From Nitrospinales bacterium (GTDB lineage Bacteria; Nitrospinota_A; UBA7883; JACRGQ01), in assembly GCA_023248535.1 (NCBI GenBank), contig JAHFEJ010000026.1:1-35011 (forward strand): a DNA stretch of 35,011 bases, written 5' to 3'. Below, one piece after another: positions 6,871-15,143 of this stretch. The position numbers were made by a program, and so were the translations under genes. Each line of letters starts with the position of its first letter. Positions within the stretch are counted from its first letter, which is position 1. The notes under the pieces were generated by a model, which worked only from the letters and a program-made list of their open reading frames with translations, had not been told where the DNA came from and made no database searches.

Positions 6871-7647
6871 TTACCGCTTTCCGATTTCCGGTTTGAGGCT
6901 TTTGGGCCGGATGAAGCTTTTCTTCGGATAGTAGCCGGAGGGGAGTGTGGTGTTGGGGTAGACCCAGCACTGCTCTTCCAGAAGGGCGGCGGGGGAGGTG
7001 ACGGAGTTGCATCCCAACTCGCAGTGGTCGCCGATAATGGCGCCGAACTTCGCCATGCCGGTGCGCACCGTTTCACCGTTCAGCACAAACGTTATTTCCG
7101 GGAAGGATACCGCCATCTTCGCTTCCGGCAGGCGGAACTTCAGGTTGGCGATTTTCGTTCCCGCGCCGAGGTTGACGTATGAGCCGAGCACCGAATCGCC
7201 GATGTAATTGAAGTGCCCCGCCTCGGTGTGGTTCATCAGGATCGAGTTTTTGATCTCGGTGGTGTGCCCCAGCGTGCAGTGGTCGCCCGCGATGAGGTCG
7301 CCGCGCAGGAAAGCCCCCTGCCGGATCTCGCATTTGCGGCCGATGAGCGCCGGGCCTTTGATGTAGGCGGCCGGCTCGATTTTTGTTCCCGCGCCGATAA
7401 AGATGTGGAGCGGGCGGTAGTCGATATCCTGTTTCAGCGTGGTTTCACCGGTGCAGAAAAGGGCATCGCCATTCCGTTCGACCCCCGCCGGCAAGGTTGC
7501 GCCGCCGGTTGCGGGAAAGTGGGCGAGGATATGATCGTGTATTTTTGGCAGCACGTCCCACGGGCGGCTGATGCCGTCGAAAATCCCTTTATGGGCGAAG
7601 CCTCCCAGTCCGGGAAAAAAGTCCCGCAGGTTGAAATCAGTCGACAC
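6871..7647 (-). CDS. Stand-alone left-handed beta-helix acetyltransferase, equivalent to the GlmU C-terminal domain
   Basis: A 258-residue protein with hexapeptide repeats (IGAGTKIEPAAYIKGPALIG and onward) forming a left-handed beta-helix. The block EIKNSILMNHTEAGHFNYIG then VNLGAGTKIANLKF matches the GlmU acetyltransferase active site. Residues R115, K133, H145, Y148, N159 and N168 fall at the same spacing as E. coli GlmU R333, K351, H363, Y366, N377 and N386 (numbering recalled). I infer acetyl-CoA-dependent N-acetylation of glucosamine-1-phosphate or a close analogue. The start is GTG 7647, with GGGAGG upstream and an 11-base overlap with the mutase gene. It is the last gene of the amino-sugar operon. 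The N-terminal 75 residues are not recognised. Confidence 0.85.
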   Translation of the reverse strand: MSTDFNLRDFFPGLGGFAHKGIFDGISRPWDVLPKIHDHILAHFPATGGATLPAGVERNGDALFCTGETTLKQDIDYRPLHIFIGAGTKIEPAAYIKGPALIGRKCEIRQGAFLRGDLIAGDHCTLGHTTEIKNSILMNHTEAGHFNYIGDSVLGSYVNLGAGTKIANLKFRLPEAKMAVSFPEITFVLNGETVRTGMAKFGAIIGDHCELGCNSVTSPAALLEEQCWVYPNTTLPSGYYPKKSFIRPKSLKPEIGKR

Positions 7648-9535
7648 ATTCCCTCCCCAACAGCGTAAGGGTAAAACCTTCCGCGCCCGACTTGACCAGT
7701 TTCTGTTTTATTTCCATTTCGTAGGTCAGCCGGTCGAAGTCCACGCCGGGATAGAATTCTTTTTTCGGCTGTTCGCCGTGGAACAACTGTTCCAGGATCA
7801 TCTGTTCCGCCGCGGCCATCCGGTGTTCCCTGTTTTTCATTTTTTTCATAAGGAGTCCCAGCGCCGCATCCAGTGTTTTTTGCAGCAAAGGCCGCAATGC
7901 CCGAGGCCCGCGTACGTTCACGCTTATTTTGTCCTCGGTGCCGCTGTTGCGGACGAAAATGGAGGCGACATGCCCTTCGCCCGCTTTTACCAGTTTGGCG
8001 AAAAGCATGTCAGGTTCGTCGGCGATCAGCAACGGTTCCACGGTGATGTCTTTCGCCTTTCCTTCCATGATGGACCTGTTGATGATATCCAGCACTCTTT
8101 TCCACACCTCGCCGCCGCGGTGGAAAAGTTTTTTGTCTATGTAGTAGGCATAGCCGGTTTGTTTGAAACCCGGCTCAAACGGCTCTTTGAGCAGGGCGGC
8201 CATCTTTGCGTTGTCGGAACCGGCAAGGCGGTGGGCGGCAACCAAGGTGTTGATGGCCCCTTTCAAGCCGTTGCCGGCGAAGACCTTCGCTTCCGCTCCG
8301 CAGGCCGCCAGCGGAACCAGGCCGGCGTGGATGCTGTGGCCGGTTTCCTCGGCGCCAAGCGCGAAACAGCCGGGCGCGCTGTTGGCGCAATGCAGTATCC
8401 ATTTGTCGCCTACCGCCATCATTTCCGGTTTCAGGCCCAGGTTGGCGATGTGGCGCGCGACATTGATATCGCTTTCCACCGTATAGGCGAATGTTTTGCC
8501 GCGGTATTCATCGGGCGCGGATTGCATAAGCCATGCGGCCTGCAGGGCGGAGCATTCGTCGCCGGATAGGATGTGCAGCGCGTCTTCGGCGGAATCGTAC
8601 CAGAGGAGGAAAAACCGGTCGCCATCGCCGTCGAAAACGACCCCCATAAGCCGTTTCAAGGCGCCGGGCCTGGCGGCCAGGGCGCGCCCGGTTTCAAACA
8701 TTTTCTTAACCAGTTTGTGCCGGGCGATGCCCGCGTCCTCGGCGAAGCGCTTTGCGCTGATGGCCCGGATCCCTTCCAGGTAGGCGACTCCCGAATCGCG
8801 GTTGATGTCGCCGTTTTGTTCGCCGGCCACTTCGGTCACTTGCCCAAAGCCAAGCTGTGAAAAAATCATCGCGCCCAATCCAGCCATTGCGCCATGCGCG
8901 GCGTCCACCACGATCCCGGTTCCCGTGAAGAGTCCTTCCCCGGCGCCGATCCACGTGTTGCGGGGATCCATATGGAAATCGGCGAGCTGCCGGCGCCCCC
9001 AGCTGACGAGATCGATGGGCTGATATTTTTTCGGCGTACGGCGCACCGCGTCAAAATCGGCGGCTTCAACGGCGGCGGAAAGGAGATCGTCTTCCTCCGT
9101 CATGGGTTTTACCGCTCCGGGGGCGTTAAATATTTTGATGCCGTTCTGATCCCGGGGATTATGCGAGGCGGTTATCATAAAGGCGGTCGCGGTTGAGCGG
9201 CAGACCAGCGCAATTGCCACTCCCGGGGTGGGAATGACGCCGAGGACGGCTGGCACGCCGCCCGCCTTGGCGATCCCGTCCACCGCTTTGCCGGTATAGC
9301 ACCCTTCGGTGTCGCGGCCGTCCCAGCCGATAAGGACTTCGTCCCCCGGTTCCATCATGCCGGTTTCGATCATGCGCGTCACGTGGGTGTGGCAGTAAAG
9401 CTCGAAAAACTCTTCGGTCATTATTCCGTTCCGATGGAAAACTTCCAGCGGCCCATAGTCAAATGCGGCCGCCAAGGCCACGGGACGGCGCACGCCATCG
9501 GTTCCCTGCAACCGTTCAACGGTTTTTCCGGCCAC
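7637..9535 (-). CDS. Alpha-D-phosphohexomutase, GlmM/PGM-like, unusually long
   Basis: A 632-residue phosphohexomutase. Key sites are in order: GTDGVRR at 11-17, phosphoserine loop TASHNP with S124, metal loop DGDGDR at 302-307, sugar loop GAEETGH at 394-400, and phosphate loop RNSGTED at 528-534. Known members interconvert hexose 1- and 6-phosphates. Between glmS and a GlmU-type acetyltransferase, the likely substrate is glucosamine phosphate (the GlmM role), but GlmM usually has about 450 residues and this subgroup cannot be fixed from motifs. There are extra segments inside the domains and about 80 residues after the phosphate loop that I do not recognise. It lies three bases after glmS. 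Confidence 0.88.
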   Translation of the reverse strand: MAGKTVERLQGTDGVRRPVALAAAFDYGPLEVFHRNGIMTEEFFELYCHTHVTRMIETGMMEPGDEVLIGWDGRDTEGCYTGKAVDGIAKAGGVPAVLGVIPTPGVAIALVCRSTATAFMITASHNPRDQNGIKIFNAPGAVKPMTEEDDLLSAAVEAADFDAVRRTPKKYQPIDLVSWGRRQLADFHMDPRNTWIGAGEGLFTGTGIVVDAAHGAMAGLGAMIFSQLGFGQVTEVAGEQNGDINRDSGVAYLEGIRAISAKRFAEDAGIARHKLVKKMFETGRALAARPGALKRLMGVVFDGDGDRFFLLWYDSAEDALHILSGDECSALQAAWLMQSAPDEYRGKTFAYTVESDINVARHIANLGLKPEMMAVGDKWILHCANSAPGCFALGAEETGHSIHAGLVPLAACGAEAKVFAGNGLKGAINTLVAAHRLAGSDNAKMAALLKEPFEPGFKQTGYAYYIDKKLFHRGGEVWKRVLDIINRSIMEGKAKDITVEPLLIADEPDMLFAKLVKAGEGHVASIFVRNSGTEDKISVNVRGPRALRPLLQKTLDAALGLLMKKMKNREHRMAAAEQMILEQLFHGEQPKKEFYPGVDFDRLTYEMEIKQKLVKSGAEGFTLTLLGRECVD

Positions 9536-9538
9536 CGG

Positions 9539-11359
9539 TCAGGCCACCGTCACCGATTTGGCCAGCGCCCGTGGTTTATCCACGTTCTTGCCCAGCGTGA
9601 CGGCGGCGAAGTAGGAGTAGAGTTGGGCGGCGACCAGGCTTACCAAGGGGGCGACAAGCGGCGGCGACGCGGGGAGCATCAGCTGGTCGTCCAGCAGTTT
9701 TGATTTCTGGAGGGTTTTGGAAGAGTGGATGGCGGTCACCGAGCCTCCCCGCGCCCTGATTTCCTCGATGGAACTCATCGTCATGTTGAACAGCTCCTCC
9801 TCCTTTTCGGCCGGGACGAAAACAAGCGACTTGAGCTTTTCGTCGATGAGGGCGATGGTGCCATGTTTCAAAAAGCCCGCCGGCATCCCTTCGGCATGCA
9901 GGTAGGCCACTTCTTTTACTTTCAGCGCGGCTTCGAGCGCGATGGGGTAGTAGCGGCCCCGGCCCAGATAGAGCCAGTTGTGGTGGTGTGCCGTGCGCTG
10001 CGCCAGGGTGTGCACAAAGCCGGAGTATTCGTTAAGGAAACCGGAGATGGTATCAGGCAGGGTCTCGAGCTGTTTTATTTTCTGTTTTTTATCGGCGGGG
10101 GTTATCCGCTTGGTCATCACTCCCGCCTCGATGGCGATGCGGATGAGGATGATCATCTGCGCCAGGGCGGCTTTGGTGCTGATAACGCAGATTTCGGGGC
10201 CGGAGCCTTGCATCACCACATCGTCCACGAGGCGCGCCATCGTGCTGCCGATGACATTGACCATGGCGGCGGTGCGGGTTTTGCGGCGTTTTGCCTCGCG
10301 CAGAACGCGCAGGGTATCGTATGTTTCGCCGGATTGGGAAACGGCCAGAATGAAATCCTCCTGCCCGAAGGCGCTGCCTTCCAGGAATTCATCGGCGCTT
10401 ACGGCGGGGGCGCTGACGCCCGCTTCGCTGGCGAGGTAGTATTGCCCCAACTGGGCCACATAAAAGGTTGTGCCCACGCCCGTCAGGAATGCGCGGCGCG
10501 CTTCAATCAGGCGGCGGGCCAGATTGGCGATGGACTTTTCGTCGATTGCCAGGGCTTTAATGACAGTCTGGGGCTGCTCGTGGATTTCCTTGAGCATGTA
10601 GTGGGGAAATCCCCCTTTTTTGCTCATCTCGGCGTCCCATTCGATCAGCATCACCTGTTTGTCCACCGGTTGGCCGTTTGACATCCGTTTTACGGCGTAG
10701 CCCTCGTCGGTGATAACGGCATATTCGCCATCGTCCATCACCACGGCGTTCTTGGTGTATTCGATGAAAGCATTGAAATCGGAGCCGAGGTAGTTTTCAT
10801 TTTTTCCCAGCCCGATAATGAGCGGGCTTTCGTGTTTGCCGCAAAAGATGCACCACGGCTCTTCGGCGGATACCATCGCCACGGCAAACGAGCCGTCCAG
10901 TTCTTTCAGGGCGGCCACAAACGCCCCCTCCAGCGGCATGCCCCCTTTGCGGTATTCTTCAATGAGGTGGGGGATCACTTCGGTATCGGTTTCGGACGCG
11001 AAGATGTGCCCCTTTTTCATGAGTTTGGTTCTGAGCACGCCGTAGTTGGAAATAATGCCGTTATGCACTACCGCGATGGTTCCGTCGCAGTTTGTGTGCG
11101 GATGGGCGTTTAACGGCGTAACGCCGCCGTGGGTTGCCCAGCGGGTGTGCGCGATCCCCACATGGCCGTCGAGCGAGGTGAAAAGCTCCTTTTCCGCCAC
11201 TTCGGCCACATGGCCCACGTTCTTGCGGACGATGGGACCGTGGGAATTGATCACCGCCATGCCGCAGGAGTCGTACCCCCGGTATTCAAGATTCTGGATG
11301 CTGTCAAGCAGCCGCCGCGAGATGGAGGTGTTGGAAACGATGCCGCTGATGCCGCACAT
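9539..11359 (-). CDS. glmS: Glutamine-fructose-6-phosphate aminotransferase (canonical copy)
   Basis: Makes glucosamine-6-phosphate from fructose-6-phosphate and glutamine. The frame is open to 11461, but the start is fixed at the ATG at 11359 because Cys2 (MCGISGIV) must become the N-terminal nucleophile. The glutaminase residues are present: EYRGYDSCG, HTRWATHG, VVHNGIISN and SETDTE. The SIS isomerase half has SQSGETYDT, KVKEVAYLHAE, LKHGTIALID and the C-terminal DKPRALAKSVTVA. Length is 606 residues, as expected. It is two bases from the nucleotidyltransferase stop upstream and three from the mutase start downstream. It is one of two GlmS paralogues in this operon and the one with an intact glutaminase site. 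Confidence 0.95.
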   Translation of the reverse strand: MCGISGIVSNTSISRRLLDSIQNLEYRGYDSCGMAVINSHGPIVRKNVGHVAEVAEKELFTSLDGHVGIAHTRWATHGGVTPLNAHPHTNCDGTIAVVHNGIISNYGVLRTKLMKKGHIFASETDTEVIPHLIEEYRKGGMPLEGAFVAALKELDGSFAVAMVSAEEPWCIFCGKHESPLIIGLGKNENYLGSDFNAFIEYTKNAVVMDDGEYAVITDEGYAVKRMSNGQPVDKQVMLIEWDAEMSKKGGFPHYMLKEIHEQPQTVIKALAIDEKSIANLARRLIEARRAFLTGVGTTFYVAQLGQYYLASEAGVSAPAVSADEFLEGSAFGQEDFILAVSQSGETYDTLRVLREAKRRKTRTAAMVNVIGSTMARLVDDVVMQGSGPEICVISTKAALAQMIILIRIAIEAGVMTKRITPADKKQKIKQLETLPDTISGFLNEYSGFVHTLAQRTAHHHNWLYLGRGRYYPIALEAALKVKEVAYLHAEGMPAGFLKHGTIALIDEKLKSLVFVPAEKEEELFNMTMSSIEEIRARGGSVTAIHSSKTLQKSKLLDDQLMLPASPPLVAPLVSLVAAQLYSYFAAVTLGKNVDKPRALAKSVTVA

Positions 11360-11361
11360 GG

Positions 11362-12570
11362 CTATTTTCCGCCTTTCGGATAGGTAAAGTGGTGGGGAAC
11401 CACCGTTTCCGGTTCGATTATGGAACCGGGAGCGATGGTGTGGCCCGCTCCCAGGCGGCAACTGTCCCCCACAAACGCGCCCAGCTTTATCATCTTTGAA
11501 TCCAGGGCAACCTTGTTTACCCGGACTTTCACGGTGGAGCCATCCATGTTGTTGTTGACGGTCACGATACCGGAGCCGACATCGACTCCCTCGCCGATCA
11601 CGCTGTCTCCGATAAAGGAGAGGCGGCCCACGCGGCCACCGCCGGTCAGCACGCAGTTTTTCATTTCGACGCCGTAACCGATCACCGATTTGGGTCCGAG
11701 CGATGAATATTTACGCACCAGCACGTTATTGCCGATGTATGTGCCGCGGCCGATGAAGGCGGGGCCTTCGATAATCGAGCCGGAACGGATTTCCGCGTCT
11801 TCCTCGATGATCACCGGCCCTTTGATCTTCGCGTCCCGCATTTTCACCGATTGGTGCACGCGGGCATGTGTCCACGTATCCATAACCATTTTGTTCGCGG
11901 CCAGGATGTCCCACGGATAGCCGATATCGATCCATCCCTTCTCCCACATGGCCGCCCTGAGGCCTTCGCTTTTAATCAAATGCATCAAGGCCTTGGCCAT
12001 ATCGCCATCACATTTTTCCAGCAGGCCAAAAAAAGTGTACGGGAGCACATAGATGCCCGCCAGTACGTAATTGCCCAAATTTTTGCGTTCCGGCTTTTCC
12101 ACGATTTTAATGATATTCATGGTGTTGTCCAGGTACACATTGCCAAACGAGCCGGTTTCCGGGGGGAGGCAGATGGCCGCCGTCGGCTTACCCCCCAGCC
12201 CGAAAATCTGGAGGGCGTTGCGCACTATGTTATCGTCGGTCACCACGTCCGCGTAGACCAACAGGAAATGTTCCCCCGGAGTGAATTTCGCCTTGGCGGC
12301 GAGGATCGCATCGCCGATGCCCGCCTGTTTTTTTTGCGTTACGTAGCTGATGCCCATGCCGATGTTCTGGCCGGTGCCGAAGTAGTCGGTGATCGATTTG
12401 CCCAACGGGCCCATGACGCAGATGACGTCGTTAAACCCCGATTCCTTAAGCATCTGCAATGACCGGTACAGGATCGGCCGTCCCGCCACATGAAGCATCG
12501 ATTTGGGCCGGGTGGTCGAAAACGGGGCCATGTTGTTTCCGCCGCCCGCGGCCAGGATTAGTGCTTTCAT
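11362..12570 (-). CDS. Diverged sugar-phosphate nucleotidyltransferase/hexapeptide-repeat fusion (GlmU-like, catalytic residues altered)
   Basis: A 402-residue two-domain protein. The N-terminal nucleotidyltransferase fold starts MKALILAAGGGNNMAPFSTT then RPKSMLHVAGRPIL. The usual Arg of the GxGTRM/GERL signature is absent (GGGNNM at residues 9-14). The C-terminal beta-helix aligns with the GlmU acetyltransferase centre: R286 and K304 are kept, but R316 replaces the catalytic His, F319 replaces Tyr and D330 replaces the first Asn, while N339 is kept (alignment by eye). So either it acts on a different sugar or acyl substrate, or one or both activities are lost. It lies between two glmS genes, 12 bases after one and two before the other. 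It resembles the archaeal-type GlmU architecture more than the bacterial one. Confidence 0.85.
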   Translation of the reverse strand: MKALILAAGGGNNMAPFSTTRPKSMLHVAGRPILYRSLQMLKESGFNDVICVMGPLGKSITDYFGTGQNIGMGISYVTQKKQAGIGDAILAAKAKFTPGEHFLLVYADVVTDDNIVRNALQIFGLGGKPTAAICLPPETGSFGNVYLDNTMNIIKIVEKPERKNLGNYVLAGIYVLPYTFFGLLEKCDGDMAKALMHLIKSEGLRAAMWEKGWIDIGYPWDILAANKMVMDTWTHARVHQSVKMRDAKIKGPVIIEEDAEIRSGSIIEGPAFIGRGTYIGNNVLVRKYSSLGPKSVIGYGVEMKNCVLTGGGRVGRLSFIGDSVIGEGVDVGSGIVTVNNNMDGSTVKVRVNKVALDSKMIKLGAFVGDSCRLGAGHTIAPGSIIEPETVVPHHFTYPKGGK

Positions 12571-12582
12571 CCGTAACTCTCC

Positions 12583-14400
12583 TTACACGGTAACGCTTTT
12601 TGCCACATTCCGCGGCCTGTCCACGTCCTTATTATTGTATAAGGCAACATAATAGATGAAAAGCTGGGCCGGAACAATCGCCAGCAACGGGGCCAGGATG
12701 TCCGGTGCCCCGGGCAGCGCGATAAAGTCGTCGCAATGGGATTCCACGCCGCTGTCCGCGAAACCGGTGGCGATCACCCGCGCGCCCCGCGCCCGAAGCT
12801 CATCCATATCGTTAAGCGCCTCCTGCAACAGGGAGTGGAGGTTGCCGAAATAGAGGATCGGCGTGTTTTTTTCAACCAGGCTGATCGGCCCGTGCTTCAT
12901 TTCCCCGCCCACCAGCCCTTCAGCGTGGATACCGGCCACTTCTTTCATTTTAAGGCCGCAATAAAGTGAAACCGGGTAGTTGAGCCCCCGCCCGATAAAA
13001 AAGAAGCTCTTATGGTGTGAAAACTTCTCCGCCAACCGCCGAATAAGCGTTTCATAGGTAACCATCAATTCCATCTGTTCAGGCAATTTGGCCAGCGCAT
13101 CAATCAGTTTCCGCTGTTCCTCCACGGAAAGGGCGTTTTTCGACCGCGCCAGATGCAAGGCCAGAAGGGCGGTGGCCGCCACATTGGCCGAAAAGGTTTT
13201 GCTGGATGCGATGGATATTTCCGGCCCCGCGCGGGTGACGAAAAGGTCGTCCGCCAGGCGGGCAAGGGCGCTGTCGCCATTATTGGTGATCGCCAGCAGG
13301 CGCGCGCCCTTCTCTTTGGCCGCCTTCGAGCTTTCGATAGTATCGTGGGTTTCGCCGGACTGCGAGATCGCCACATAAAGGGTATTTTTCTCGATGACCG
13401 TTGTATCGAAGCGGTATTCAGAGGAAATAACACGCGCGGCGGGGACGCCCGCCACCGTTTCACACAACCGTTGTCCCAGCATGGCCGCCACATACGATGC
13501 TCCGCCGCCGCAGAAAACGGCTTTTTTTATTTCTTCCCCCGCGCCGCAGGGGAAGGTGAAAGCTTCGGGGGTGAGTTGTTCGGCTTTCCCCCGGAAACAG
13601 CCGGCGATGGTTTCGCGCACCGCGCGGGGGGATTCCACGATTTCTTTTAACAGGAAATTTCGGTAGCCCCGCTTTTCGGCCATGACCGGATTCCATGAGA
13701 TTTTCTGGGGGGCCTGCTCCACCTGGCGTCCGTTGAAATCGAGCAGTTGCGCCCCTTCGGGGGTGAGCAGGGCCACCTCGCCATCCCGCAAAAAAACCAT
13801 CGTATCGGTGTACGGCGCGATGGCGGTGGCGTCGGAGGCGGCAAGATACTCCCCTTTGCCCAGCCCGATCACCATGGGATTCCCTTTGCGGACCACCACC
13901 AACTGTTCCGGCGCGCGCGCCGAAACGGCGCAGAAGGTCAGCCCTCCCTCCAGCAGGTTCAAAACCGCCAACACCGAATCGATCAGGTCTCCCCGCCAGT
14001 GCAGATTGATAAGGTGGGGGAGAATCTCAGTGTCGGTTTCGCTGCGGAAACGGATACCCTGTTTTTTAAGCTGCGTGCGCAGGGCCATGGCGTTTTCTAT
14101 GATGCCGTTGTGCACCACCGCGGTGTCCCCCGCCACCTGGGGATGGGCGTTTTTTATGGAGGGTTTGCCGTGCGAAGCCCAGCGGGTATGTGCAATGCCG
14201 ACATTGCCCAAAAGCGGTTTTGCGCGGAGTTTTTCGGCCAACCCTGCCGGTCGGCCCAGCGTCCGCTTGATTGACAACCCTCCGGGGCCGATGAGCGCGA
14301 TGCCGCTGCTGTCGTACCCCCGGTATTCCAGCCGGATGATCGCATCCAGCAATATGTCCTGCGCGTTGCGGGGGCCGATGTACCCGGCAAGGCCGCTCAT
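12583..14400 (-). CDS. GlmS paralogue with Ser in place of the catalytic Cys
   Basis: A 605-residue protein with full GlmS architecture, but the start reads ATG AGC GGC (MSGLAGYIG), so the N-terminal nucleophile is Ser. Other glutaminase residues remain: EYRGYDSSG, HTRWASHG with R73, VVHNGIIEN and SETDTEILPHL. The isomerase half keeps SQSGETHDT, LKMKEVAGIHAE, MKHGPISLVE and the C-terminal DRPRNVAKSVTV, so sugar isomerisation should be possible. Cys-to-Ser changes in class II amidotransferases generally abolish glutamine hydrolysis while ammonia-dependent activity can survive. Here that is an inference. No in-frame Met-Cys lies upstream, because the preceding glmU gene ends in an ATGA overlap exactly at this start. 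Confidence 0.9.
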   Translation of the reverse strand: MSGLAGYIGPRNAQDILLDAIIRLEYRGYDSSGIALIGPGGLSIKRTLGRPAGLAEKLRAKPLLGNVGIAHTRWASHGKPSIKNAHPQVAGDTAVVHNGIIENAMALRTQLKKQGIRFRSETDTEILPHLINLHWRGDLIDSVLAVLNLLEGGLTFCAVSARAPEQLVVVRKGNPMVIGLGKGEYLAASDATAIAPYTDTMVFLRDGEVALLTPEGAQLLDFNGRQVEQAPQKISWNPVMAEKRGYRNFLLKEIVESPRAVRETIAGCFRGKAEQLTPEAFTFPCGAGEEIKKAVFCGGGASYVAAMLGQRLCETVAGVPAARVISSEYRFDTTVIEKNTLYVAISQSGETHDTIESSKAAKEKGARLLAITNNGDSALARLADDLFVTRAGPEISIASSKTFSANVAATALLALHLARSKNALSVEEQRKLIDALAKLPEQMELMVTYETLIRRLAEKFSHHKSFFFIGRGLNYPVSLYCGLKMKEVAGIHAEGLVGGEMKHGPISLVEKNTPILYFGNLHSLLQEALNDMDELRARGARVIATGFADSGVESHCDDFIALPGAPDILAPLLAIVPAQLFIYYVALYNNKDVDRPRNVAKSVTV

Positions 14401-15143
14401 GCGCGCCCGCCGTTGGCATGGGCGCGGTTGATCGCCGCCAGTTCATCAACGGTATTGACGCCGGTGATTTCGCCGATGTCCGGCAGTTTCAGCGCCGCGA
14501 CGGTTTTTCCGCCGGCCAGGGCGATTTTAACCACATCGGTCAGGTAGTATTCCTTCTGGTCGTTGGCGGGGCGTATCTGTTCCAGCGCGCCCCAGAGAAA
14601 AGAGGCGTCGAACACATAGATGCCGCCGTTGATCTCGGTCACGGCCTTCTGGGCGGGAGAGGCATCCCGTTCCTCAACGATGGCGTTCACCGCGCCGCCG
14701 GCATCCCGTATCACCCTTCCGTAACCGGCGGGATGTCCGCATTCGGCGCTCAACAGCGTCACCGCCGCGCCGCTCTCCGCCGCCAACGCCAGCAGGCGGC
14801 GCACAGTGCCCGGCTGGATCCGCGGCACATCGCCGGAGAGCACCACCACCGTGCCGTTGAAACCGTTCAACGCGGGGCGGGCCTGCATCACGGCATGGGC
14901 GGTGCCAAGCTGTTCGCGCTGCCCGGCGAAAAGCGTGCCGGTGCCAGCCAGCGCCTCTTGCACCATTTCGGCCTTATAGCCGACCACCGCGACAACGGTA
15001 CCGGCGATCTCATGCGCGGCGCGCGCCACATGCGCCACCAGCGGCTCCCCCGCGAAGGGGTGCAACACCTTCGGCAGATCGCTTTTCATGCGGGTTCCCT
15101 TGCCCGCCGCCAGGATGATCACCGCCACGCCTTGCTTGTCCAT
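14397..15143 (-). CDS. glmU: GlmU-type N-acetylglucosamine-1-phosphate uridylyltransferase, pyrophosphorylase domain only
   Basis: A 248-residue protein with the bacterial GlmU N-terminal domain: VIILAAGKGTRMKSDLPKVL, AGQREQLGTAHAVMQ, VVLSGDVPRI, AGYGRVIRD, AIVEERDAS, EINGGIYVF and TGVNTVDELA. It should transfer UMP from UTP to GlcNAc-1-phosphate. Normal GlmU is about 450 residues and carries a beta-helix acetyltransferase domain. Here the gene stops after the first domain, with an ATGA overlap into the GlmS paralogue, so it is a clean gene end and not a window or frame artefact. The frame is open to 15440, but the ATG at 15143 gives the normal N-terminus. It is the first gene of the six-gene operon. 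Confidence 0.92.
   Translation of the reverse strand: MDKQGVAVIILAAGKGTRMKSDLPKVLHPFAGEPLVAHVARAAHEIAGTVVAVVGYKAEMVQEALAGTGTLFAGQREQLGTAHAVMQARPALNGFNGTVVVLSGDVPRIQPGTVRRLLALAAESGAAVTLLSAECGHPAGYGRVIRDAGGAVNAIVEERDASPAQKAVTEINGGIYVFDASFLWGALEQIRPANDQKEYYLTDVVKIALAGGKTVAALKLPDIGEITGVNTVDELAAINRAHANGGRA

Follow-up and report, generated by a model that had tools for sequence, protein, structure and literature searches.

The GlmS protein is the entry enzyme for cell-wall sugar synthesis, with glucosamine as its product, and the class II glutamine amidotransferases are defined in textbooks by an N-terminal Cys. In the Ntn hydrolases of the penicillin acylase type, an N-terminal Ser is a competent nucleophile; these enzymes have a mature N-terminal Ser, as the GlmS protein described here (Ser-GlmS) would after Met removal, but they are not amidotransferases, and Ser-GlmS is known from sequence. 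In the glutaminase site of GlmS, Cys1 is described as the sole catalytic residue, and the isomerase residues are Glu488, His504 and Lys603 (PMC9272926). The GlmS/GFAT proteins (TIGR01135; E. coli 1jxa, 2j6h) share with Ser-GlmS the two-domain architecture, the glutamine pocket, the sugar residues and the C-tail, and they have Cys1, whereas Ser-GlmS has Ser, the change E481Y and about 25 further changes at conserved positions of the isomerase half (residue numbering is that of mature E. coli GlmS). The E. coli C1A mutant (3ooj) is without the nucleophile and is reported still to bind sugar phosphate and glutamate; it is a laboratory mutant, whereas the Ser of Ser-GlmS is natural and conserved. 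Human CPS1 likewise shows a natural Cys-to-Ser change: its glutaminase-like domain is retained but silent, other members of its family are glutamine-dependent, and with Ser294 in place of the catalytic Cys it uses free ammonia (PMC4655335). However, CPS1 belongs to Class I (triad) and its ammonia use is proven, whereas Ser-GlmS belongs to Ntn class II and may use ammonia. No description of a natural Ser-GlmS was found in the open-access literature searched.

The window, a stretch of 35,011 nucleotides from a Nitrospinales bacterium (contig JAHFEJ010000026.1), encodes both Ser-GlmS and an intact Cys-bearing paralogue, Cys-GlmS, in one operon (Table 1). The Ser-GlmS gene opens with ATG AGC GGC CTT (Met-Ser-Gly-Leu), and Cys-GlmS opens with Met-Cys-Gly-Ile. 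The sequence-only reading had pointed out a Ser codon at position 2 where GlmS needs Cys, a start fixed by overlap with the preceding gene, and an intact Cys-GlmS two genes downstream, and all of this was borne out: AGC was read at the second codon, in-frame stops lie upstream of the start in addition to the ATGA overlap, and one gene separates the two paralogues. The gene lies on the minus strand, a point absent from that reading. Ser-GlmS scores as a full-length GlmS, with 633 bits against NCBIfam glmS TIGR01135 (cut-off 418) and 638 bits against PRK00331, and its AlphaFold2 model (mean pLDDT 86.7) has a TM score of 0.91 to E. coli GlmS (1jxa). The N-terminal Cys nucleophile that marks the GlmS family is Ser (AGC) in this protein, and Met-Ser falls exactly at the Cys1 place of the Ntn pocket, where the Met would presumably be removed. 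The two paralogues of the operon are 36–38% identical and are the only full-length GlmS proteins in the 98% complete assembly. The bacteria that carry this pair of genes are uncultured and come from groundwater and sediment.

Table 1. Features of the Ser-GlmS gene and of its operon in the window.
Feature	Coordinates	Strand	Basis and remarks
Stand-alone GlmU uridylyltransferase domain, without acetyltransferase half, directly upstream of Ser-GlmS	14397..15143	minus	NCBIfam glmU-type N-terminal match
Ser-GlmS	12583..14400 (14400→12583)	minus	ORF and translation; 605 aa plus stop, N-terminus MSGLAGYIG
Codon 1, ATG	14398..14400	minus	Sequence
Codon 2, AGC = Ser, place of GlmS catalytic Cys1	14395..14397	minus	Sequence
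ATGA, Ser-GlmS start overlapping the TGA stop of the GlmU-type uridylyltransferase gene before it	14397..14400	minus	Sequence
Glutaminase half (GATase_6/7), residues 1–239	13684..14400	minus	Pfam; pocket complete apart from the replaced nucleophile
Isomerase half (two SIS domains), residues 240–605	12586..13683	minus	Pfam; K485, E488, H504, K603 kept, E481Y
Archaeal-type bifunctional GlmU, between both GlmS genes	11362..12570	minus	TIGR03992, 303 bits, above cut-off
Cys-GlmS (MCGISG...), intact class II amidotransferase	9539..11359 (11359→9539)	minus	TIGR01135, 623 bits
Divergent GlmM-like phosphohexomutase	7637..9535	minus	PGM_PMM domains; glmM 105 bits, below cut-off; conserved position
Stand-alone left-handed-beta-helix acetyltransferase, resembling the archaeal GlmU C-half; closes the operon	6871..7647	minus	TIGR03992 C-terminal match, 144 bits; conserved position

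The order GlmU uridylyltransferase domain, Ser-GlmS, archaeal-type GlmU, Cys-GlmS, GlmM-like protein and acetyltransferase recurs across the family. Most of the f1 loci read have the GlmU domain beside Ser-GlmS, as do other Nitrospinota, where Ser-GlmS immediately follows it (L081, L102, L113); in the genome of L102, the only such genome read, the pair of archaeal GlmU and Cys-GlmS is located apart from Ser-GlmS (L165). The entire UDP-GlcNAc pathway (6871–15143, minus strand) is placed in one operon made from split and archaeal-type parts. Elsewhere in the class, in the families read, the GlmU domain, archaeal GlmU, Cys-GlmS and GlmM-like genes are clustered wholly or partly without Ser-GlmS, and by identity (56–60%) and by the tree the only GlmS found is the ortholog of the Cys-GlmS of the window. 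Since the operon exists there without it, Ser-GlmS is the extra and Cys-GlmS the housekeeping enzyme; Ser-GlmS is dispensable across the class and co-occurs with Cys-GlmS. Two further genomes are recorded here as separate observations. In G010 (L056 6107-7860) Cys-GlmS is broken, with residues about 160–180 missing and the frame changed, and Ser-GlmS is intact, a MAG error being possible; in G005, a MAG of the same family that is 94% complete, no GlmS was found, through missing contigs or loss.

In the genome collection, the phylum of the window is sampled by 24 genomes. Ser stands at residue 2 in all nine sequences of the family of the window with a readable start, encoded by AGC, TCC, TCG, TCA or TCT after the start codons ATG, GTG or TTG. 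As AGY and TCN codons lie more than one base apart, it is Ser itself that selection maintains. In comparisons within the genus, dN/dS amounts to 0.056–0.070 for Ser-GlmS, low in both protein halves, and 0.049–0.083 for Cys-GlmS. The check proposed in the sequence-only reading, whether relatives with the same gene order keep Ser, thus came out positive; the case it named as refuting, Cys throughout the sister genomes, was looked at and the outcome was the opposite, all being Ser. The argument of that reading against simple decay is supported too: dN/dS is about 0.06, similar to the Cys neighbour, and the reading frames are intact in all cases with full coverage. A wrong start is ruled out by the upstream frame, which has stop codons without Met-Cys; in relatives an in-frame stop lies immediately before the same start in G008 (TAA-GTG-TCC) and G023 (TAA-ATG-TCT), and one codon before it in G009 and G007. 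Although AGC is one base from TGC and the data come from MAGs, an error in the sequence, a misplaced start or a pseudogene in decay has virtually no chance of being the explanation, because sister genomes and switches among five Ser codons in independent genomes rule out an assembly or base-call error, upstream stops fix the start, and dN/dS rules out a pseudogene. Ser-GlmS is a real, selected variant with a Cys-bearing GlmS paralogue adjacent to it.

The GlmS tree was built under a mixture model from 64 rows (23 Ser, 41 Cys), with residues 1–2 excluded. The Ser rows are scattered over several places, which asks for at least six changes, four of them forced by strongly supported branches. One origin for all Ser-GlmS proteins is ruled out (p-AU 7e-69), and a single origin for the Nitrospinota/Tectomicrobia and Acidobacteriota Ser clades is compatible with the data (p-AU 0.32). 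On this tree, the same swap arose separately in different phyla. The direction of change was probably from Cys to Ser, most clearly in Bacillota, where Ser rows are nested among Cys rows. The Cys-GlmS of the window (9539–11359, minus strand) belongs to a separate long-branched clade (MCGISG/MCGIAG) seen in Nitrospinota and Tectomicrobia, with GFLKHGT in place of GELKHGP and Thr in place of S303.

Among 87 N-termini retrieved by homology, a non-random sample, the nucleophile place holds Cys in 54 and Ser in 33, and nothing else. Scanning 84,980 species genomes for GlmS starts of the ATG-TCN kind only gave 56 matches, mostly in Acidobacteriota, with further ones in Nitrospinota, three in Bacillota, one in Tectomicrobia and one in Omnitrophota. 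One match, in Nitrosomonas supralitoralis, was rejected as a fragment of 41 codons in a genome with an intact Cys-GlmS elsewhere. The AGY form occurs in the genus of the window only (among 385 genomes). In 91 relatives of one acidobacterium, 37 have the Ser form, with Cys-GlmS also present in 28 of them, and 44 have Cys only; the Tectomicrobia genome and nearly all Nitrospinota with Ser-GlmS also carry Cys-GlmS. Apart from the Ser form, no GlmS was found in the Bacillota MAGs G394, G397 and G391, and near relatives have a single Cys-GlmS; such absences weigh little because the genomes are mostly MAGs. An apparent second full-length Cys-GlmS in G397 was discarded, because the extra fragment matches the C-half of the Ser gene in that genome at 94% identity and is thus probably a strain variant or chimera. 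Ser-GlmS directly follows a canonical glmM in G394 and follows glmU in Blastocatellia, and in an Omnitrophota MAG it adjoins UDP-sugar dehydrogenase and chain-length/tyrosine-kinase-like genes, with a second GlmS in pieces elsewhere. On a Bryobacterales chromosome record (OX638379.1, 6.19 Mb; L078 / L174 7092-8945), no full-length GlmS is present other than a Ser form in which erosion has reached both sites (R73G, N98S, K603R), and a SIS-only GlmS relative lies elsewhere.

The sequence-only reading had also stated that the glutaminase motifs and the isomerase residues are kept. This stands for the pocket (R26, R73, W74, H77, H86, H97, N98, G99 and D123) and for the isomerase catalytic residues E488, H504 and K603 together with K485, all present in the Ser-GlmS of the window, but not for the isomerase half at large: of the positions conserved elsewhere, it differs at 25 of 87, and the glutaminase half at 5 of 53. 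Across the Ser-GlmS proteins of the family, 26–32% of the canonically conserved positions are changed in the isomerase half and 8–13% in the glutaminase half. E488, H504 and K603 are invariant across the f1 rows compared, and Tyr replaces E481 in each of the six f1 sequences of the residue-level alignment; the changes fixed in these six include E481Y, V376N, N532D, A584I and Q259S, which looks like a burst of change followed by constraint rather than drift. K485 is Met or Leu in five sister genomes of the window and in Blastocatellia, and the Terriglobia-type Ser clade carries E488K, as does L106 of Nitrospinota; one or the other change occurs in several Ser lineages and in none of 54 Cys-GlmS proteins. 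In the tree, 14 of 23 Ser rows against 0 of 41 Cys rows have an altered K485/E488/H504/K603 core, and the glutaminase pocket is altered in 2 of 23 Ser rows (L078, L197) against 1 of 41 Cys rows. With only four independent pairs, an association of Ser with loss of the isomerase core beyond shared ancestry was not shown, and the rows compared revealed no compensating residue that the Ser lineages share. In the Acidobacteriota (L072-L121, Terriglobia-type), the change of E488 to Lys is accompanied by Tyr304 mostly to Arg, fixed in many species, and the residues compared mark a second, distinct rewiring.

The precedent of CPS1 and the roles of the GlmS sites lead us to favour, tentatively and at somewhat short of an even chance, an accessory GlmS to which glutamine binds without serving as donor and which acts on hexose phosphate, either with ammonia from outside or as an isomerase. 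Once Met is removed, the N-terminal Ser would occupy the Cys1 place, and glutamine would be bound and not usefully hydrolysed. In the sugar half, His would open the hexose-phosphate ring, Lys would form the Schiff base and Glu would move the proton, the substrate being fructose-6-phosphate or a related sugar that either receives outside ammonia or is plainly isomerised. Glutamine in the intact pocket could govern the activity as a gate or nitrogen signal, and the ordinary glutamine-dependent step would be the job of Cys-GlmS in the same operon. The loss of hydrolysis, the ammonia use and the signal role of glutamine are all of this conditional kind. The retention of Ser2 despite codon-class switches, the purifying selection on both halves, the operons without Ser-GlmS in the other families and the invariant E488, H504 and K603 of the f1 rows compared speak for an accessory enzyme, and the sole Ser-GlmS of the Bacillota, including G391 with an eroded glutaminase pocket and an intact isomerase core, is as expected for glutamine-independent enzymes. 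Against it, known GlcN-6-P synthases are described as unable to use free ammonia, an unusual trait (PMC9272926), and the stronger change of the isomerase half, with K485 lost in the five sisters and E481 replaced in the six f1 sequences, is the reverse of what is expected for an isomerase that dropped its glutaminase. Because the isomerase base is Lys (E488K) in the Acidobacteriota Ser clade, a single catalytic role cannot fit all Ser-GlmS proteins, and the lineages may differ in role, G391 having lost the pocket and kept the isomerase core and the Terriglobia-type proteins the reverse.

A non-catalytic partner is also possible, although on the unlikely side: a pseudo-amidotransferase that would bind glutamine and sugar phosphate and regulate Cys-GlmS or other enzymes of the operon, in the way of GlmR (YvcK), which is not known to be related to GlmS. 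GlmR, a UDP-GlcNAc-binding protein of Bacillus subtilis, is proposed as a GlmS stimulator (PMC7525490), and EIIANtr is reported as another GlmS partner (PMC5024086). A comparable partnership of Ser-GlmS would agree with its co-occurrence with Cys-GlmS in Nitrospinota, Tectomicrobia and most of the Acidobacteriota with Ser (TCN), with the better preservation of the glutamine pocket, and with the loss of the isomerase base in the E488K proteins. However, the window gene and the f1 rows compared retain the three catalytic isomerase residues, the three Bacillota MAGs have the Ser form only, and at 36–38% identity a mixed dimer of Ser- and Cys-GlmS is not obvious.

It is rather unlikely that Ser is itself a working nucleophile, which would make Ser-GlmS an N-terminal-Ser glutaminase or amidotransferase, possibly slower or with a changed acceptor. 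Ser nucleophiles do occur in the Ntn superfamily, but Cys-to-Ser changes in amidotransferases generally abolish glutamine use. The restriction of the 87 N-termini to Ser and Cys, with Ser spread over both codon classes, suggests that the hydroxyl is important, the pocket retains every residue, with Trp74 of the ammonia channel also in place, and Ser-GlmS is the sole GlmS found in the Bacillota MAGs, in one beside glmM. On the other side stand the example of human CPS1 (PMC4655335), the lack of pocket in G391, and the glutaminase half, in which no compensating change recurs apart from T72 to Ile or Leu in some Ser lineages. A class II amidotransferase with an N-terminal Ser nucleophile that came from GlmS several times, and is possibly the sole GlcN-6-P synthase in some Bacillota, has slighter prospects still.

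An isomerase-only (phosphoglucose-isomerase-like) or GlcN-6-P deaminase-like enzyme is improbable. The catalytic sugar residues are present in the Ser-GlmS of the window, and GFAT/GlmS have a glutamine-independent PGI-like activity (PMC7948480); but K485 and E488 are both retained by the SIS-only GlmS relatives examined, whereas several Ser-GlmS lineages lost one of the two, and the more strongly changed isomerase half, the loss of K485 in the sisters and E481Y weaken the plain isomerase for this family. For a deaminase, the NagB-II/GlmD scores are far under the cut-offs (122.8 versus 430; 86.6 versus 580), and Ser-GlmS has the glutaminase domain that NagB-II/GlmD proteins, with SIS domains only, are without. 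The three roles put forward in the sequence-only reading (ammonia-dependent, isomerase-only and regulatory partner) cannot be separated by sequence; a working Ser nucleophile was not among its proposals.

Ser-GlmS is a natural variant of the known enzyme GlmS. Automated annotation labels such genes as glutamine-dependent, by their full glmS score, despite the missing catalytic residue, which calls for caution. The natural, selected and repeated change from Cys to Ser makes it testable whether a Ser nucleophile can serve an amidotransferase, and likewise makes testable a GlmS chemistry without glutamine hydrolysis.
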